Shown one piece after another: positions 30,354 through 40,262 of a stretch of 64,000 nucleotides of DNA; position 1 is the stretch's first letter, and each line of letters opens with the position of its first letter. The translations under genes were made by a program, and so were the position numbers. The notes beneath the pieces are model-generated. The model ran no database searches, was not told the origin of the DNA, and saw only the letters and a list, made by a program, of their open reading frames with translations. The DNA comes from Aurantiochytrium sp. KH105. Lineage: Eukaryota > Sar > Bigyra > Thraustochytrida > Thraustochytriidae. Location of the stretch: contig BGKB01000047.1 of assembly GCA_003116975.1 (NCBI GenBank), forward strand, positions 186,001 through 250,000, written 5' to 3'.

Positions 30354-33300
30354 CTAAAGCCTGCTGGCACGCAGCTGAAGCTCAAGAATAAGCGCCTCGA
30401 GCTCGTGCTCTTTTTGGTAGTTGCGTTGAGGGATCTCCGCGCGCACCGAACCCGTGCTCGTTGCAGAAGAACCCCCTTCGTGCGACCCGTGCCATGAAAG
30501 AGCTTCGAGGTGGTCAAACAGCTTCTTCTGCAGTTCAACGTGAAATTGCTCCTTCTCTTTGCCGCCATAGTTCCACCCACTCTCCACCGCGAGGAACTTC
30601 TTGCTCTTCAGCAATTCAATGTCTTCGTCGATGGATTCGATGCCTAATGCATCATGCACATCGCGGTAGCATCCAGGTTCCAACACGATCACGACCACCT
30701 CCGCCATACTCATCGACGAAACGCTGCTGAGCTTCCGTTTAAGGATCGGGACAACGTGGGACTCAAACTTTCCAAGAACGTATAGCTCAGGAACTTTTCG
30801 CGGCTTCTCAGGCGCCCTCATTTTGAAGCCTGCGAGCTTGGCCAGTTCGCGAAGCATGGCTTCTTCTTCAAAGTGACGGCGACGATAAGGGATGATGTAG
30901 CACTTTTCCAGCGCCTCTTGAGCTGTCTCATAATACTTCTTGTAATTGTTCGCTGAATCGTGGACAGAAATGTCGTCATCACCGTCTGCGGCGCTCGCGC
31001 TGAGATCGAAAAGTGAGCTCGAGAGATCTTCTTCCAGCTTCCTTCGCTCGAGCCTGCGCTTGAACTCTTTCGCTTTCTTCCTCGCCTTCCTTGCTTCCTT
31101 CTTGCAGCTTTTCGCAAACTCCTCTTCATCTGTCTCGTTGGCAAGATCTTGCAGCATAGTCGCTCTGTCCATCTCTGCCTTCGCTTGCACTTTAAGACTC
31201 TTCTCGTCCTCCTTCTCTAGGGTGTCTGGGGTCCATGGCTCGTCTTCGATTGCTCGCCAGGGACTAAAGCGCTCGTCCTCCTCTGCAAGAAAGAAGATGT
31301 GCTTCCACAGATCGCTCTCCATGCTTCTGAAGTAGTCCACAGCAAACTTGAGCTCGGCGAGACAAAAGGGCCGAAACAGGACGTCCGTCGTCAGAACCAT
31401 CACAAAGCACTGCGACGACATGACGCCACGCTGCATCGCTCCCATCGTGATGTCGAGAGCGCGCATATCGACCCACGCCGTCATTTGGTTCCGCTCGAGA
31501 CCAGCGTCCAGATCCTTGACAATACCAGCCGCCTGCTGCTGCATGTGCGACAGGAAAAAGTGGTACCTGGGCAGCTCGAGCAGATCATTCATGAGGGAAG
31601 GATTGTGATACCATTTGTCGTCCTCTTGTCTGTTCCGTTGCGACAGTCTGAGTGTTGTTCGTATGGGATCGAAGCGCGGGCCAAGGCCTTTCATACTTCT
31701 GTGAAGGCTCACAAGTCTGTCCTTCATCGGTCTCGCCATCTTGGTTCTCAGAGACCGTTGCCTTGACAAGCGCGTACGCTTTGACTTTGACCCAGATATG
31801 CGTCCAAACGCGCGACTTGTTCTGCGTTCAGACGCGCGCCTGCTTCCTGACTTGTGCTTCTTCCTGGACTCTCGCTGCCTCGGGTCATCTGCAAGCGAAG
31901 CTCGCCGACTTGGGTCCTCTGCAGCTTCGCTTAAAGAATCGAGCTCAGACTTCAGGATCTTGTCAAAGAATGGATGCCCCAGGATCTCATTAAGCCCGAG
32001 TCGCTCCGTGGCTTCTCCACGGAGACAGACACGCACTAAATCACGGGCCGCCTCGATCTCGCTCTCATCGCCGCTCAGCCCATTCTCTGCTCCACGAGCT
32101 GGTCTGCTCCCACGCCGAGCACGTCCGTTCACGCCTTTTCGCTGCTTGATGCGCTTGATGCGCTCTTCGTCGAGTCCAAGCCAGTTCATGAGCTCATACT
32201 TGTCGCGACTGTGTACCAGATTGTCATCCGACTCGTCAACCATGAAGAGCTTGGTGCCCGAAAGCAACTGATACAGCAGGACGCCAAAGCCCCATACATC
32301 CTGAGATGTGTCTCCTTTTGGCGCCTCATCACCGTCAAACATGAAGCGGGCTACCTCTGGAGATATATAGCCAGTACTTGCTTTCTCGCTGACCTCGGAG
32401 CCGATCACCACAGAGGCATCGAGGTCGATCAGCTCCCACTTCTCTTCGCGATCGAGCCCTTCACCCGTCGGCGAGTTACGCCAGGCCGTGGACACCATCA
32501 GCCTTCCTTTCATGCTGTCCTCCACAAAGGTGTTTGCGCTCGATTCACTTGTGCGCACCGCATTGCGCGGCTTGATATCGCCGTGGATGCGACCGCTGGT
32601 GTGCAGGCTTTGTAAGGCTGATGCAATCTGGTACGAGATCTCGCGAATCTTGTCAAGATTGCGACCTGCAAATCGTTCGGTGTTGATCGCCTCGAAGAGA
32701 GACCGAGTACCACGAGGCATGACCAGACATAATTCCTTATCCAAGTGCTTGCGGTCCTTTTTTTTCTCGCGATTCAACAACTTTAGGCAGCCTTGGATTT
32801 GGTTGCCATCTTTTGGCTTTCGCGCTTCGATTTCGCGATCGTATTGTTTTCTTTCGCGCATGATCTTGATTGCCACAGGCTTGTTGTTGTTGCGTATATC
32901 TGTGGCAAAGTGCACGGCGCAGGTCTTGGACTCGTGCACGGGTGGCCCCTCGGCGATCTCGTAGCGGCCGAGGTAAGTGCCGTAGGTCTTGGCCCAGGCT
33001 TTCGTTCTTTTGTTTGCAAGTGCGAGCGAGCGAGCGGAGCGGCCACTGTTGTCCTCTGCTGCCATCAAGCGCAAACCGTCTTGAAGAGGTAGCTTCTCAG
33101 TGATATATTCCTTCAAGAAGGCATTTGGGAGTGCAAATTCCGTGCCACCAGGGCGGCAATCTAGCAGTGCATGAATGATCGGGACGGCGTCATCATCCTC
33201 TTTTTGCTCGTCGTGCTGAAGCCAAAATTTATAGTCGTCGAGAGGTAGTGCTACGTCCGGATCATGAGTAATCAGCATCGACAAAAAGATCACGAAGACG

Positions 33301-36300
33301 TGAGCATTTTTGCTTGCAAGCTTGTGTGCAGCTGACGTCCATCTCAAACCTAGCTCATCGACAAGGTACTCGCGAATCTCTTGTACGCGCTCCGATTGAG
33401 TCAAAGGCTCCCAGATTGCCTTGCCATCCTCCTCTTCGCCAACCTTTCTGGACCAGAGGTCCTTGAAAGTAAGGGGCTCTGGTATATCTGGCATGCCACT
33501 TTGGAGATGGTTATAAGCGATTAGGAGTTTCTGTCAGCGAATTGATAGAAACAAGCAAGAGTGCGAGAGGAGACTTACGACAATGATGTCAGTGTGAAGT
33601 TCTTGTCCAGCAGACGGGCCAGATGCTCATAGCCTGCGGTGCCGATCTCGTTATCTTCGATGCTGCGCATGTCGAATAATTGCGCAGCAGATGAATCCCA
33701 AAATTAGAAGAGGTGATTTTGAAGAGGCGCGATATTTCGTTGCGTCAGTTTTGCTCATCAATCCAGACAAATAGAAATCATCTCAATCTAATGAGTGTAC
33801 ACATCTGCTTTCGATTTAGTCGAGAGATTTTCTGCTGAAGCATGAACTTACTTGAGCGATGTCAGCGTACTATTGGCCGCCAAGCTATTAGCCAGTGACT
33901 TGGCGCCCTCGACGCCGATTTTGTTCTCTTGGAGACTGCGCGTTCCATGGCCGCATCATCAAATAAAATTAGAAGAGTAATGGTGTGTAAGTTATGTCCG
34001 TCCATGAAGTCGAGGCAAGTCAGATCACTACTGCTGCTCTTCTTTCACGCCTGCATGCATCTGCAATCAGAGCGGTCATGCGCACCCAGCTCCTCCCCAC
34101 CTCCCAATCTCATAAGAATCGGACCATGAACTTACTCCAGCGTCGTCAGCGTGCTGCTGGCCGCCAGTCCCTCAGCCAGCGCCTTGGCACCCTCATCGCC
34201 GATCTGGTTGTCTTCAAGACTGCGCGTGCCGTGACAGCAACAAACAAAGCACACAAACGCGTAATCATGCACAAGAAACCGGCCGTTTGTCAGTTTTGCC
34301 CGTCAGTATTGTCAAGCCAAGTCGAAGCCTTGTTGCCACCAGTATTTAGGTATACAATCGCGTTGTCACACAGTGCGCTCATGCGCCTGCCCGATGATCG
34401 TGAACTTACTCCAGCGTCGTCAGCGTGCTGCTGGCCGCCAGTCTCTCAGCCAGCGCCTTGGCACCCTCATCGCCGATCTGGTTGTGTTGAAGCCTGCGCG
34501 TGCCGTGACAGCAACAAACAAAGCACACAAACGCGTAATCATGCACAGAAAAACGACCGTTTGTCAGTTTTGCCCGTCGGTATTGTCAAGCCAAGTCGAA
34601 GCCTTGCTGCCACCAGTAGTGAGGTATACAATCGCATTTGCACGTAGTGTGAATATAGGCCTCACCGATGATCTTAAACTTACTTCAGCGTCGTCAGCGT
34701 GCTGCTGGCCGCCAGTCCCCCAGCCAGCGCCTTGGCACCCTCAACGCCGATCTGGTTGTGTTGAAGACTGCGCGTGCCGTGACAGCAACAAACAAAGCAC
34801 ACAAACGTGTAATCATGCACAAAAAAAAGACCGTTTGTCAGTTTTGCCCGTCTGTGTTGTCAAGCCAAGTCGAAGCCTTGCTGCCACCAATATTTAGGTA
34901 CACAATCGCGCTGTCACGCAATGCGCTCATGCGCCTGCCCGATGATCGTGAACTTACTTCAGCGTCGTCAGCGTGCTGCTGGCCGTCAGTCTCTCAGCCA
35001 GCGCCTTGGCGCCCTCATCGCCGATCTGGTTGTGTTGAAGACTGCGCGTGCCGTAGCAGCAACAAACAAAGCACACAAACGTGTAATCATGCACAAAAAA
35101 AAGACCGTTTGTCAGTTTTGCCCGTCTGTGTTGTCAAGCCAAGTCGAAGCCTTGCTGCCACCAATATTTAGGTACACAATCGCGCTGTCACGCAATGCGC
35201 TCATGCGCCTGCCCGATGATCGTGAACTTACTTCAGCGTCGTCAGCGTGCTGCTGGCCGCCAGTCCCTCAGCCAGCGCCTTGGCACCCTCATCGCGGATC
35301 TGGTTGTATTGAAGACTGCGCGTGCCGTAGCAGCAACAAACAAAGCACACAAACGCGTGATCATGCACAGAAAAACGACCGTTTGTCAGTTTTGCCCGTC
35401 TGTGTTGTCAAGCCAAGTCGAAGCCTTGCTGCCACCAGTATTTAGGTATACAATCGCGCTGTCACACAGTGCGCTCATGCGCCTGTCCGATGATCTTGAA
35501 CTCACTTCAGCGTCGTCAGCGTGCTGCTGGCCGCCAGTCTCTCAGCCAGCGCCTTGGCACCCCCATCGCCGATCTGGTTGTATTTAAGACTGCGCGTGCC
35601 GTCGCAGCAACAAACAAAGCACACAAACGCGTGATCATGCACAAAAAAACGACCGTTTGTCAGTTTTGCCCGTCTGTGTTGTCAAGCCAAGTCGAAGCCT
35701 TGCTGCCACCAGTATTTAGGTACACAATCGCGCTGTCACGCAATGCGCTCATGCGCCTGCCCGATGATCTTGAACTTACGTCAGCGTCGTCAGCGTGCTG
35801 CTGGCCGCCAGTCCCTCAGCCAGCGCCTTGGCACCCTCATCGCGGATCTGGTTGTATTGAAGACTGCGCGTGCCGTAGCAGCAACAAACAAAGCACACAA
35901 ACGCGTGATCATGCACAGAAAAACGACCGTTTGTCAGTTTTGCCCGTCTGTGTTGTCAAGCCAAGTCGAAGCCTTGCTGCCACCAGTATTTAGGTATACA
36001 ATCGCGCTGTCACACAGTGCGCTCATGCGCCTGTCCGATGATCTTGAACTCACTTCAGCGTCGTCAGCGTGCTGCTGGCCGCCAGTCTCTCAGCCAGCGC
36101 CTTGGCACCCCCATCGCCGATCTGGTTGTATTTAAGACTGCGCGTGCCGTCGCAGCAACAAACAAAGCACACAAACGCGTGATCATGCACAAAAAAACGA
36201 CCGTTTGTCAGTTTTGCCCGTCTGTGTTGTCAAGCCAAGTCGAAGCCTTGCTGCCACCAGTATTGAGGTATACAATCGCGCCACAGTGCGCTCATGCGCC

Positions 36301-38668
36301 TGCCCGATGATCTTGAACTTACTTCAGCGTCGTCAGCGTGCTGCTGGCCGCCAGTCCCTCAGCCAGCGCCTTGGCACCCTCATCGCCGATCTGGTTGTTC
36401 CAAAGCCTGCGCGTGCCGTGACAGCAACAAACAAAGTACACAAACGCGTAATCATGCACAGAAAAACGACCGTTTGTCAGTTTTGCCCGTCGGTATTGTC
36501 AAGCCAAGTCGAAGCCTTGCTGCCACCAGTAGTGAGGTATACATTCATGCGCCTGCCCGATGATCTTGAACTTACTTCAGCGTCGTCAGCGTGCTGCTGG
36601 CCTCCAGTCCCTCAGCCAGCGCCTTGGCACCCTCAACGCCGATCTGGTTGCCATAGAGACTGCGCGTGCCGTCGCAGCAACAAACAAAGCACACAAACGC
36701 GTGATCATGCACAGAAAAACGACCGTTTGTCAGTTTTGCCCGTCAGTATTGTCAAGCCAAGTCGAAGCCTTGCTGCCACCAGTATTTAGGTATACAATCG
36801 CGCTGTCACACAGTGCGCTCATGCGCCTGCCCGATGATCGTGAACTTACTCCAGGGTCGTCAGCGTGCTGCTGGCCGCCAGTCTCTCAGCCAGCGCCTTG
36901 GCACCCTCATCGCGGATCCGGTTGCCACGGAGACTGCGCGTGTCGTGACAGCAACAAACAAAGCACACAAACGCGTGATCATGCACAAAAAAACGACCGT
37001 GGTCAGTTTTGCCCGTCTGTGTTGTCAAGCCAAGTCGAAGCCTTGCTGCCACCAGTATTGAGGTATACAATCGCGCTGTCGCACAGTGCGCTCATGCGCC
37101 TGCCCAATGATCTTGAACTTACATCAGCGTCGTCAGCGTGCTGCTGGCCGCCAGTCCCTCAGCCAGCGCCTTGGCACCCTCTGTGCCGATCTGGTTGTTC
37201 CAAAGCCTGCGCGTGCCGTAGCAGCAACAAACAAAGCACACAAACGCGCGTAATCATGCACAAGAAAACGACCGTTTGTCAGTTTTGCCCGTCTGTGTTG
37301 TCAAGCCAAGTCGAAGCCTTGCTGCCACCAGTATTTAGGTATACAATCGCGCTGTCGCACAATGCGCTCATGCGCCTGCTCGATGATCGTGAACTTACTC
37401 CAGCGTCGTCAGCGTGCTGCTGGCCGCCAGCATTTTCCCGACTACTTCGGCACCCTTGCCATCAATGCTGTTCCCGCCAAGGCTGTGAAATTGAAAGAGA
37501 AGAACGTCGTCAGTCCTGATCTAGCAATCCCTTCAATTTGCTTATGATCTCTGAGAAAGTTGAACATATCCTTCAGATCTACTTCTGTACTCACTTGAGC
37601 GTTGTCAGCGTGCTGTTCTTGGAAACAGCCCTTGTAATAGCTTCCAGCCCATCGAAGCCGAACTCATTGTTAAAAAGGCTGCATTACGACCCAGCTTTAC
37701 GTTAGCTTCTAATTCCGATGCGACGAAGGAAAGCATGCACAGAAGCGGTTTATCGGGACCTGTGACACTTACTTGAGCGAGGTGATCGTGGTGTTGTTTG
37801 CAAGAACTTGTGCAAGTTCTTTCACGGACGTGTCCTCGATGGAATTTCGCGAAAGGCTGTTTATTCAAGTCAGTATTCCTTGTCTACTCGATCCGGCGTC
37901 CACATTCGCGCAAACTTACTTGAGCGACGTGAGCGTCGCATTCGTGGCGACTGCCTTGGCCAGCGCTATCGCGCCTGCATCATAAATGTCGTTGCTCTCC
38001 AAGCTAAGAAGTGTAAATAGAAAATTGAGGAAACGAAAGGTTAGGTGACTGCGGCTGGCGGATTCTGTCCAAACGAATATCTCTAGGATATGAACGCGAG
38101 AGCATTTTCGTGGTGAAGCGCACTTACTTTAGATTCTCCAGCGTGCTACTTTGAGCAACCGCTTCGGCCAATACTTTAGCGCCTGCATCCTCAATCTCAG
38201 CGCCTTTGAGGCTTTGTAAATGAAGTACAGGGGTTCAGATCCTGGTTAGCTACAAGATCATCCCATCAAAGCTACTTAGCTCATAACGTACTCAATCAAC
38301 TTCGCACCTCGAGCGATTTCACGAAGTGCTCGCTGCAGTTTCGCCCGCGCTGTTACACTCAGATCCTTCAGCTCATCTTCGACGCCATCTTCAACATCCT
38401 CCTCTTCACGACCTTTGTCGTCACCTTCATGACCATCATTGTTATCGCCGCCATCGTAGTCATCAAGGTCGGCGACACTGCCTTCGTCGTCGTCGTCGTC
38501 GTTTACGAAGTCGTCTTCGCCCTTAAAACCTGACTCGTCATCGTGGAGCGCCTCCTCCTCGACCAAATCATTTTCCTCTACCAAAGCCTCTTCCTCTTGC
38601 GCCTCCGAGGCGTTGCGTCCAGGCCTCGTGACCCTCCTCATGCGCTCGGCCATCCTCTTCATCTTCAT
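30354..38668 (-). CDS. LRR-kinase-TIR receptor-like protein, 21 exons
   Basis: Predicted product of 1705 residues. Exon 1 (38668-38292) encodes a Lys/Arg start then an acidic Asp/Glu region. Nineteen 84-nt exons follow, each one leucine-rich repeat of 28 residues, with low-coordinate ends at 38128, 37920, 37773, 37596, 37399, 37123, 36850, 36576, 36323, 36054, 35780, 35506, 35232, 34958, 34684, 34410, 34136, 33852 and 33579. The last exon (33498-30354) starts in frame (SGMPDIPEP) and holds an unrecognised region of about 170 residues, a kinase (VAIK Lys869, RIHGDIKPRN Asp965, LIDLD Asp1016 in the DFG place, SPE, DVWGFGVLL), a basic linker, a TIR-like domain (FFLSHMQQQA near 1305, then RPFCLAELKFA with Glu1373) and a further C-terminal module. 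All 20 introns are GT-AG and phase 2. LRRs match the ribonuclease-inhibitor/NLR type. Role inferred: intracellular recognition coupled to signalling. No NB-ARC/NACHT, signal peptide or membrane helix seen. Further 5' exons cannot be excluded. Confidence 0.75.
33579..38211 (-). repeat. Array of 19 single-LRR exons
   Basis: Each exon is exactly 84 nt (one base, 27 codons, two bases) and encodes one LRR of the form L-x-x-N-x-I-x-x-x-G-A-K-x-L-A ending S-T-L-T-x-L. Acceptors end in CAG, TAG or AAG, donors are gtaagt, gtgagt or gtacgt. Because exon length is divisible by three and all introns have the same phase, any exon can be lost, gained or skipped without changing frame. The outer repeats (5' five and 3' two) are diverged; the central ones are near-identical. 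Confidence 0.85.
34120..37482. repeat. Homogenised tandem array of LRR exon plus intron, unit about 274 bp
   Basis: Thirteen exons (low ends 34136 to 37399) lie 274 bp apart in most steps (others 276, 273, 269 and 253 bp). Each unit holds one 84-nt LRR exon and an intron of about 190 nt. The introns are as conserved as the exons, pointing to recent duplication or gene conversion. The two-unit blocks beginning about 35206 and 35754 are nearly identical to each other, a second-order duplication of 548 bp. Confidence 0.9.
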
Positions 38669-39744: not shown

Positions 39745-40262
39745 ATTGTGCTGTCCTCCACTAGCCTGCTGGCACGCAGCTGCAGCTCAAGAATAAGCGC
39801 TTTGAGCTCGTGATCTTCCCGATAGTTGCGTCGAGGGATCCCCTCGAGCATTGACTCCATGCCCGCAGCAAAAAAAAAACTCTTCGTACGACCCGTGTCA
39901 AGAAAGAGCTTCGAGGTGGTCAAACAGCTTCTTCTGCAGTTCAGCATGGAATAGCTCCTTCTCTTTGCCGCCATAGTTCCACCCAATCTCCACCGCGAGG
40001 TACTTCTTGCTCTTCAGCAACTCATTGTCTTCGTCGATGGATTCAATGCTCAATGCGTCATCCTCAGAGAGATAGCATCCAGTTAATAGCACGATGACGA
40101 CCACATCCGCCATTTTCATCGACGTCACGCCATTAAATTTTCGTCTTGGGTCGGGACAATGGGAGATTCGGGCACTCCAAAAACGTACAGTTTCGGAATA
40201 TGTCGAGGCTTCTCGGGCATACTCGTCTTGCGAGTCTTGCCATTTCGCGAAGCATACAACTG
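39745..40262 (-). pseudogene. Decayed 3' fragment of a second LRR-kinase-TIR gene
   Basis: This stretch matches the C-terminal end of the receptor just downstream: MADVVVIVLLTGCY, SIESIDEDNELLKSKKYLAV, GWNYGGKEKELFHAELQKKL and LKALILELQLRASRL are near copies of the intact gene. It is broken by at least two frameshifts (one around the segment before VTSMKMADVV) and by a nonsense change where the intact LEALSW codon TGG has become TGA. The kinase, TIR and LRR parts are absent. Same orientation as the intact gene, about 1.1 kb beyond its 5' end, so it is probably the remnant of a tandem duplicate. Confidence 0.85.

Follow-up and report, generated by a model that had tools for sequence, protein, structure and literature searches.

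A thraustochytrid gene family joining single-exon leucine-rich repeats, a protein kinase, and a TIR domain: candidate recognition receptors with variable repeat arrays

Introduction

Toll-like receptors carry leucine-rich repeats (LRRs) at the N-terminus and a TIR domain at the C-terminus, and the plant TIR-NLRs (nucleotide-binding, leucine-rich repeat receptors) carry TIR at the N-terminus. Very little is known of immune-type receptors in single-celled eukaryotes. We describe here a predicted gene of the thraustochytrid Aurantiochytrium sp. KH105 in which LRRs, a protein kinase, and a TIR domain follow one another in a single chain (LRR-kinase-TIR, hereafter LKT). It lies in a window of 64,000 nucleotides, positions 186001-250000 of contig BGKB01000047.1 (C47), in an assembly of 76 Mb and 367 contigs; positions given without a contig name are those of the window. 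An earlier note on this DNA, made from the letters alone, had proposed a recognition protein of a kind apparently not described before. Its domain order is upheld, and its proposal of a recognition function is strengthened by the variable concave face of the LRRs; the impression of a lone oddity has to be given up, as there is a family in the genome itself and in Hondaea fermentalgiana, and the same or a similar domain order occurs in further proteins. Cassette hypervariability, which is absent from that note, is the strongest evidence for recognition, and we consider it probable that the gene, apparently one of two alleles, encodes an intracellular recognition receptor that evolves fast and is built from an LRR horseshoe, a kinase, and a TIR domain.

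The closest described exon organization is that of the LRR-ROCO genes of brown algae. According to PMC11378527, the LRR exons of these genes are 72 bases long and in phase 2, sites on the concave face have been positively selected, and splicing is alternative; the genes are also treated by Zambounis et al. (2012), as cited in the same source. LKT is like the algal genes in having one LRR per exon, phase-2 junctions, tandem cassettes, and variable concave sites (judged here from variation counts). It differs in exon length (84 rather than 72 bp), in the type of LRR, and in carrying a kinase and TIR instead of a ROC-COR GTPase; Pfam scans of the product found no ROC-COR domains. A labyrinthulomycete would then share the brown algal exon trick (phase-2, one-LRR exons with variable contacts) on a different signaling chassis, and repertoires of exon cassettes would have evolved, or been retained, more than once among the stramenopiles.

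With NLRs, LKT shares the LRR sensor. It differs from plant TIR-NLRs (RUN1, RPP1) and animal NLRs (NLRC3) in that neither NB-ARC nor NACHT was found in Pfam scans of the product (two overlapping pieces, at E up to 1 and 0.01) and in that its TIR is C-terminal; identity as an NLR was rejected because no nucleotide-binding domain was found. The order of LRRs first and TIR last is that of Toll-like receptors, from which LKT differs in the kinase between the two, in its ribonuclease-inhibitor (RI)-type LRRs, and in that no membrane helix was found by simple hydropathy (the highest mean over 19 residues is 1.47), no dedicated predictor having been applied. Identity as a Toll-like receptor was rejected on this last ground. 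The scans thus agree with the earlier note that the product is without a nucleotide-binding domain, and no long hydrophobic stretch was found. Among the titles and abstracts listed in a literature search (subscription papers and preprints were outside its scope), there was no description of an LRR-kinase-TIR architecture and nothing on TIR proteins of thraustochytrids; on LRR exons of 84 bp in NLRs, the first 20 of 156 papers were generic apart from PMC11378527.

Gene structure

With splicing placed at consensus sites, LKT reads as one gene of 21 exons on the minus strand, 38668-30354. Its predicted coding sequence of 5118 bases corresponds to 1705 residues without internal stop. The introns are GT..AG and all junctions are in phase 2 (codon split after base 2), so that any LRR exon can be gained or lost with the frame intact. 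Exon 1 (38292..38668, 377 bases) supplies the start Met and an acidic, low-complexity N-terminus (charged, by inspection), ends in phase 2 with GA before the intron start GTACGT, and is present in all four genomic copies that were read (on contigs C47, C33, C41, and C16).

There follow 19 LRR exons of 84 bp each. Exons 1 to 5 (38128..38211, 37920..38003, 37773..37856, 37595..37678, and 37399..37482) make up a 5' group that is constant by position, and exons 18 (33852..33935) and 19 (33579..33662) the corresponding 3' group, exon 19 being the last LRR and forming an in-frame junction with the kinase-TIR exon. Between the two groups lies the central cassette array, LRR exons 6-17 (34136..37206), with closely similar introns of 169-190 bp. 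Its members are exons 6-9 (37206-37123, 36933-36850, 36659-36576, 36406-36323), 10-13 (36137-36054, 35863-35780, 35589-35506, 35315-35232), and 14-17 (35041-34958, 34767-34684, 34493-34410, 34219-34136). LRR exons 10 and 12 are identical, as are the introns behind each (36137-35506), which points either to duplication of a pair of cassettes in the very recent past or to a repeat created by the assembly; it should be kept in mind that exon number in near-identical arrays depends on the assembly. The last exon (30354..33498, 3145 bases) encodes the helical middle region, kinase, linker, TIR, and alpha/beta tail, and ends with the stop codon.

An ATG at 33494 stands early in the frame of the last exon and the gene model here comes from sequence alone, both of which would be compatible with an artefact that fuses two neighboring genes, one with the LRRs and the other with kinase and TIR. 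We regard this as very improbable. The phase matches at the last junction, and each of the 20 gene copies examined in the genome (haplotype pairs counted singly) has at least one intron-flanked LRR exon upstream of the kinase exon. Gene models of Hondaea fermentalgiana (P0001, P0003, P0004, and P0008) join LRR and kinase, and P0055, an MMETSP transcript product (organism name beginning 'Mallomo'), holds LRR, kinase, and TIR in a single chain. The earlier note had named transcripts that end after the LRR exons and start anew near 33494 as one outcome that would undo its reading; the independent Hondaea model P0001, which starts in the last LRR exon and enters the kinase exon at the same junction, speaks against such a start.

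Two loci and apparent haplotypes

The flanking RTC cyclase gene matches only C47 and C33 (98%), and the flanking ABC transporter gene has one other near-full-length match, on C33 (96%), plus 18 short matches elsewhere. C41 and C16 pair likewise, with flank identities of 89% and 77% and one short match in C32. From this synteny and identity we infer that C47/C33 and C41/C16 are alleles. The number of LRR exons is 19 in C47, 11 in C33, at least 12 in C41 (where the array contains a run of N), and 16 in C16, and in a profile scan of the four copies the AG/GT borders and phase 2 are intact in 58 of 58 LRR exons. In all four, the five first and two last LRRs correspond by position, and the central cassettes number 12, 4, at least 5, and 9, respectively. 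When a framework word of 15 bases from the cassettes is sought in the genome, 24 exact matches are found, only on C47, C41, and C16; the cassettes of C33 are without it.

The proportion of synonymous differences (pS) in the kinase is 0.129 between C33 and C41 versus 0.293 between C33 and its own partner, C47, and in the TIR core the relation is reversed (0.225 versus 0.063). Because kinase and TIR relationships conflict among the four copies, stretches seem to have been exchanged between the two LKT loci, a pattern that would be expected from gene conversion. The same cause may lie behind the identity contrast between Hondaea P0001 and C47, 88% over the middle-kinase part versus 98% over the TIR region.

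Where the LRR variation sits

Within each LRR, concave codons 1, 3, and 4 (the x positions of L-x-L-xx-N) are hypervariable. Of the 9 concave bases in the 12 central cassettes of the window, 8 are variable; the figures are 40 of 192 for bases of the introns and 13 of 75 for the remaining bases of the exons. The 30 cassettes of the four copies together contain 25 distinct concave triplets. Base entropy at codon 4 is 1.89 bits for the first base versus 0.35 for the third, and it is 0 at 49 of the 75 other exon bases. The concave codons were first spotted in the window's own array and then tested on the other copies. At the seven constant LRR positions, C47 and C33 differ at 11 of 20 concave versus 14 of 175 other residues (Fisher P 1.3e-6), and C41 and C16 at 15 of 20 versus 17 of 175 (Fisher P 5.6e-10); codon 1 of the first LRR was omitted from these haplotype comparisons, from the triplet count, and from the ratios of nonsynonymous to synonymous differences (pN/pS) at concave codons.

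The mean pairwise divergence of the introns is 0.064 (6.4%), calculated for 12 of the 18 LRR-to-LRR introns (four short ones and two at the 3' end were omitted). The kinase-TIR exon is conserved, with pN/pS of 0.26-0.31, and 0.00-0.18 for the TIR core (six pairs).

Domains of the predicted product

The LRR exons, kinase motifs, and TIR-like domain reported in the earlier note are all present where it placed them, in frame and phase-matched, and the profile searches that it proposed match LRR_6, Pkinase, and TIR_2. Pfam LRR_6 is found in 16 stretches of the N-terminal 842 residues (E 1.5e-124). Residues 1-170 of the last exon, counted from the ATG at 33494 (32985..33494), form a helical middle region in the AlphaFold2 model, with no family assigned. 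The protein kinase (31965..32894; PF00069 Pkinase, E 1.9e-21) has VAIK, HGDIKPRN, DLD, SPE, and DVWGFG in frame. Among 14 aligned sequences, K210 and D357 are invariant and D306 and N311 nearly so; we take K210, D306, and N311 to be the catalytic Lys, Asp, and Asn, and D357 the metal-binding Asp.

The TIR domain (30825..31583) scores 31.3 bits with TIR_2 in the last exon, against a Pfam cut-off of 28, and its strands 4 and 5 are separated by a long helical insertion (about 31274-30951). Its Glu714, in FCLAELKFA on the helix after strand 3, is nearly invariant in two alignments (A2 and A3). In a weak match (E 0.055) to Cat1, a CRISPR-associated TIR protein, it is aligned with the Glu of CWDEL; a Glu at this position is catalytic in NAD+-cleaving TIR enzymes. 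Judged by these residues, both the kinase and the TIR domain may be catalytically competent. With the whole last exon, a fold search was dominated by kinases (all of the best 50 matches), so the TIR part was folded alone; it then has a TIR fold (AlphaFold2; fold search, VIA-align). A mis-scored TIR was rejected because the fold search agrees with TIR. When the PDB was searched by sequence with the last exon, the best 60 of 132 matches were kinase-type chains, one of them unnamed, and the TIR profile gave 10 weak matches, which are TIR proteins, one uncharacterised protein, and a helicase. The C-terminal alpha/beta tail (30357..30824, from predicted secondary structure) is possibly a degenerate second TIR, the comparison with the TIR profile being weak (hhalign probability 7.5%, P 0.0047).

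Family members in the genome and in Hondaea

A protein search with the last exon (7990 candidates scored) yielded 11 proteins, 8 of them from Hondaea fermentalgiana, a thraustochytrid. By sequence, these eight (P0001-P0008) belong to the same family, under the automatic names 'Protein kinase, putative', 'CBL-interacting protein kinase 31', and 'Protein NLRC3'. Compared with the window gene, the Hondaea models have few LRR exons (P0001 only the last), and P0008 represents a more distant branch (33%). The same domain order, which the earlier note had suggested seeking in relatives, is found by Pfam in P0003, P0004, and P0008, and also in P0012 and P0013. In the Aurantiochytrium genome itself, at least 65 stretches match the last exon (44 of 313 candidates scored). 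The TIR part is matched in 19 of the 20 copies examined; the remaining one, L020, matches over the middle and kinase only and has one stop.

The nearest identities of the Hondaea proteins among the 20 copies are 99.6% (P0005), 97.4% (P0003), 94% (P0002), 82-85% (P0006), 64-66% (P0004), and under 40% (P0007 and P0008). The high values suggest the same or a closely related species, and the members with low identity may be counterparts beyond the 20 copies fetched. In two distant relatives, P0009 and P0011, the kinase is preceded by ankyrin-type repeats.

These comparisons bear on whether LKT might be a self/nonself receptor (mating-type or allorecognition) that targets the product of another strain and whose diversity is kept by balancing selection. 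Such a receptor would fit apparent haplotypes with 19 and 11 LRR exons between flanking genes that are 96-98% identical. The figure of only 88% between P0001 and C47 over the middle-kinase part would fit as well, if weakly, since P0005 and P0003 are nearly identical to their nearest copies and others are variously lower. However, two loci and many paralogues exceed, as a matter of general knowledge, the needs of most allorecognition systems, and we think this reading unlikely.

Upstream of LKT in the window lies a remnant of a related gene's C-terminal end (39762..40229, minus strand; tblastn 73.9% over 92 residues), its frame broken and with 1 TGA inside. The relic is also seen at C33:361151-361429 and C41:452466-453302, and its presence in three copies suggests an old tandem pair.

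A candidate recognition receptor

Several observations weigh against a recognition receptor. Bases other than those of the concave codons vary too (codon 9 base 2, 1.23 bits; codon 18 base 1, 1.07 bits), with lesser exceptions at codon 2 base 3 (0.78 bits) and codon 17 base 3 (0.77 bits), and in the pooled profile, values of up to 1.24 bits occur at single bases of the introns close to the exon. Concave pN/pS, which is calculated from few synonymous sites and partly from multi-step codon changes, is 1.65 when pooled over central cassettes and only 1.21 when pooled over the constant positions, where it ranges from 0.80 (C47/C33) to 2.52 (C47/C16). In addition, pS is raised at concave codons (0.29-0.31 versus 0.07-0.12), and with pS raised and pN/pS modest, a local hotspot of mutation or conversion at these codons has to be kept in consideration. 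The haplotype assignment rests on an assembly with gaps. As for the TIR domain, TIR_2 scores are modest, Hondaea P0003 is without the conserved Glu and its TIR falls below the Pfam cut-off, and the TIR of P0009 is not reported at E 0.01.

The raised pS would also suit a signaling scaffold of normal physiology, whose RI-type LRRs would hold a partner from within the cell and would vary through drift in redundant repeats combined with tandem exon conversion. The recently homogenized introns are in line with this, and RI-type LRRs are, as general knowledge has it, common in non-immune proteins. Drift, however, predicts spread-out change, whereas the variation concentrates at contact positions and not at other exon bases or in introns, and contact variation is also seen between haplotypes at fixed positions. 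We find a scaffold quite unlikely.

If LKT is a recognition receptor, it would probably be cytosolic, and its horseshoe of single-exon LRR cassettes would bind a variable target, most likely a protein, on the concave face. The five 5' and two 3' position-constant LRRs would cap the central array, in which cassette number and contact residues would change between haplotypes and loci. Binding of the target would release or cluster the protein, upon which kinase and TIR would act together, the kinase standing where an NLR carries its nucleotide-binding switch and the output coming from the TIR, by NAD+ cleavage or by TIR-TIR signaling. The biological role could be in defense or in self/nonself discrimination. 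Were this correct, replacement of the nucleotide-binding switch by a kinase would be a new way to control TIR domains. Because apparent haplotypes in one genome differ in cassette number and contacts, a variable repertoire of a protist becomes directly testable.

A broader proposal, which to us hangs in the balance, is that LKT belongs to an undescribed class of intracellular receptors lacking a nucleotide-binding domain, with a kinase switch, a TIR output, and hypervariable LRR cassettes that are gained, lost, exchanged from locus to locus, and possibly combinatorially spliced, so that a unicellular organism would possess an expandable recognition repertoire. The kinase-TIR core would then be general to stramenopiles and take LRR, ankyrin, G-protein-coupled receptor (GPCR), or gas sensors.

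Wider kinase-TIR proteins and the TIR repertoire

When P0011, which combines ankyrin repeats, kinase, and TIR, was used as the query, 125 proteins matched with E of 1e-20 or lower, and TIR_2 is carried by 92 of the 120 proteins listed (precomputed column). The order of sensor, kinase, and TIR was established by Pfam coordinates for six proteins of this list, plus P0011 itself. Another LRR type is joined to kinase and TIR in P0031 (LRR_8), P0048, P0055, and P0074; HNOBA precedes the kinase-TIR pair in P0041 (name beginning 'Dinobr'), and ankyrin-SPRY does so in P0011. The predicted protein P0044 has ANF_receptor and 7tm_3 ahead of the kinase and TIR, and so resembles a GPCR-like receptor with a kinase-TIR tail. 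These stramenopile and metagenome proteins (P0011, P0031, P0044, and P0041) resemble LKT in having an N-terminal sensor, a kinase, and a C-terminal TIR, but the sensor differs and the relationship in the kinase-TIR part is remote (for P0011, 23% over 39% of the query). From its domain combinations, the kinase-TIR pair looks like a signaling core with exchangeable sensors.

In P0134, PDZ_6, LRR_6, and a kinase are followed by a C-terminal NAD:arginine ADP-ribosyltransferase (ART) where relatives have TIR; as predicted from its domains, the ART is another NAD-using output on a similar plan.

With 150 of 258 candidates scored, TIR_2 yields at least 150 matches above its curated cut-off in the Aurantiochytrium genome, and many of these lie in open frames that are 800-1500 residues long; the same search also matches in 4 of 14 control genomes. 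For a unicellular eukaryote, such a TIR repertoire is very large. For NACHT there are 17 matches, 15 of them over the cut-off, and for NB-ARC two, in searches that also match 11 of 14 and 6 of 14 control genomes, respectively. LKT genes, without a nucleotide-binding domain, coexist with other types of TIR gene in the same genome. Four TIR genes were sampled: L024 has COR-A and TIR; L025 has Roc, COR-A, and TIR; L026 has TIR and NPHP3_N, with a NACHT match below the cut-off; and L027 has TIR only.

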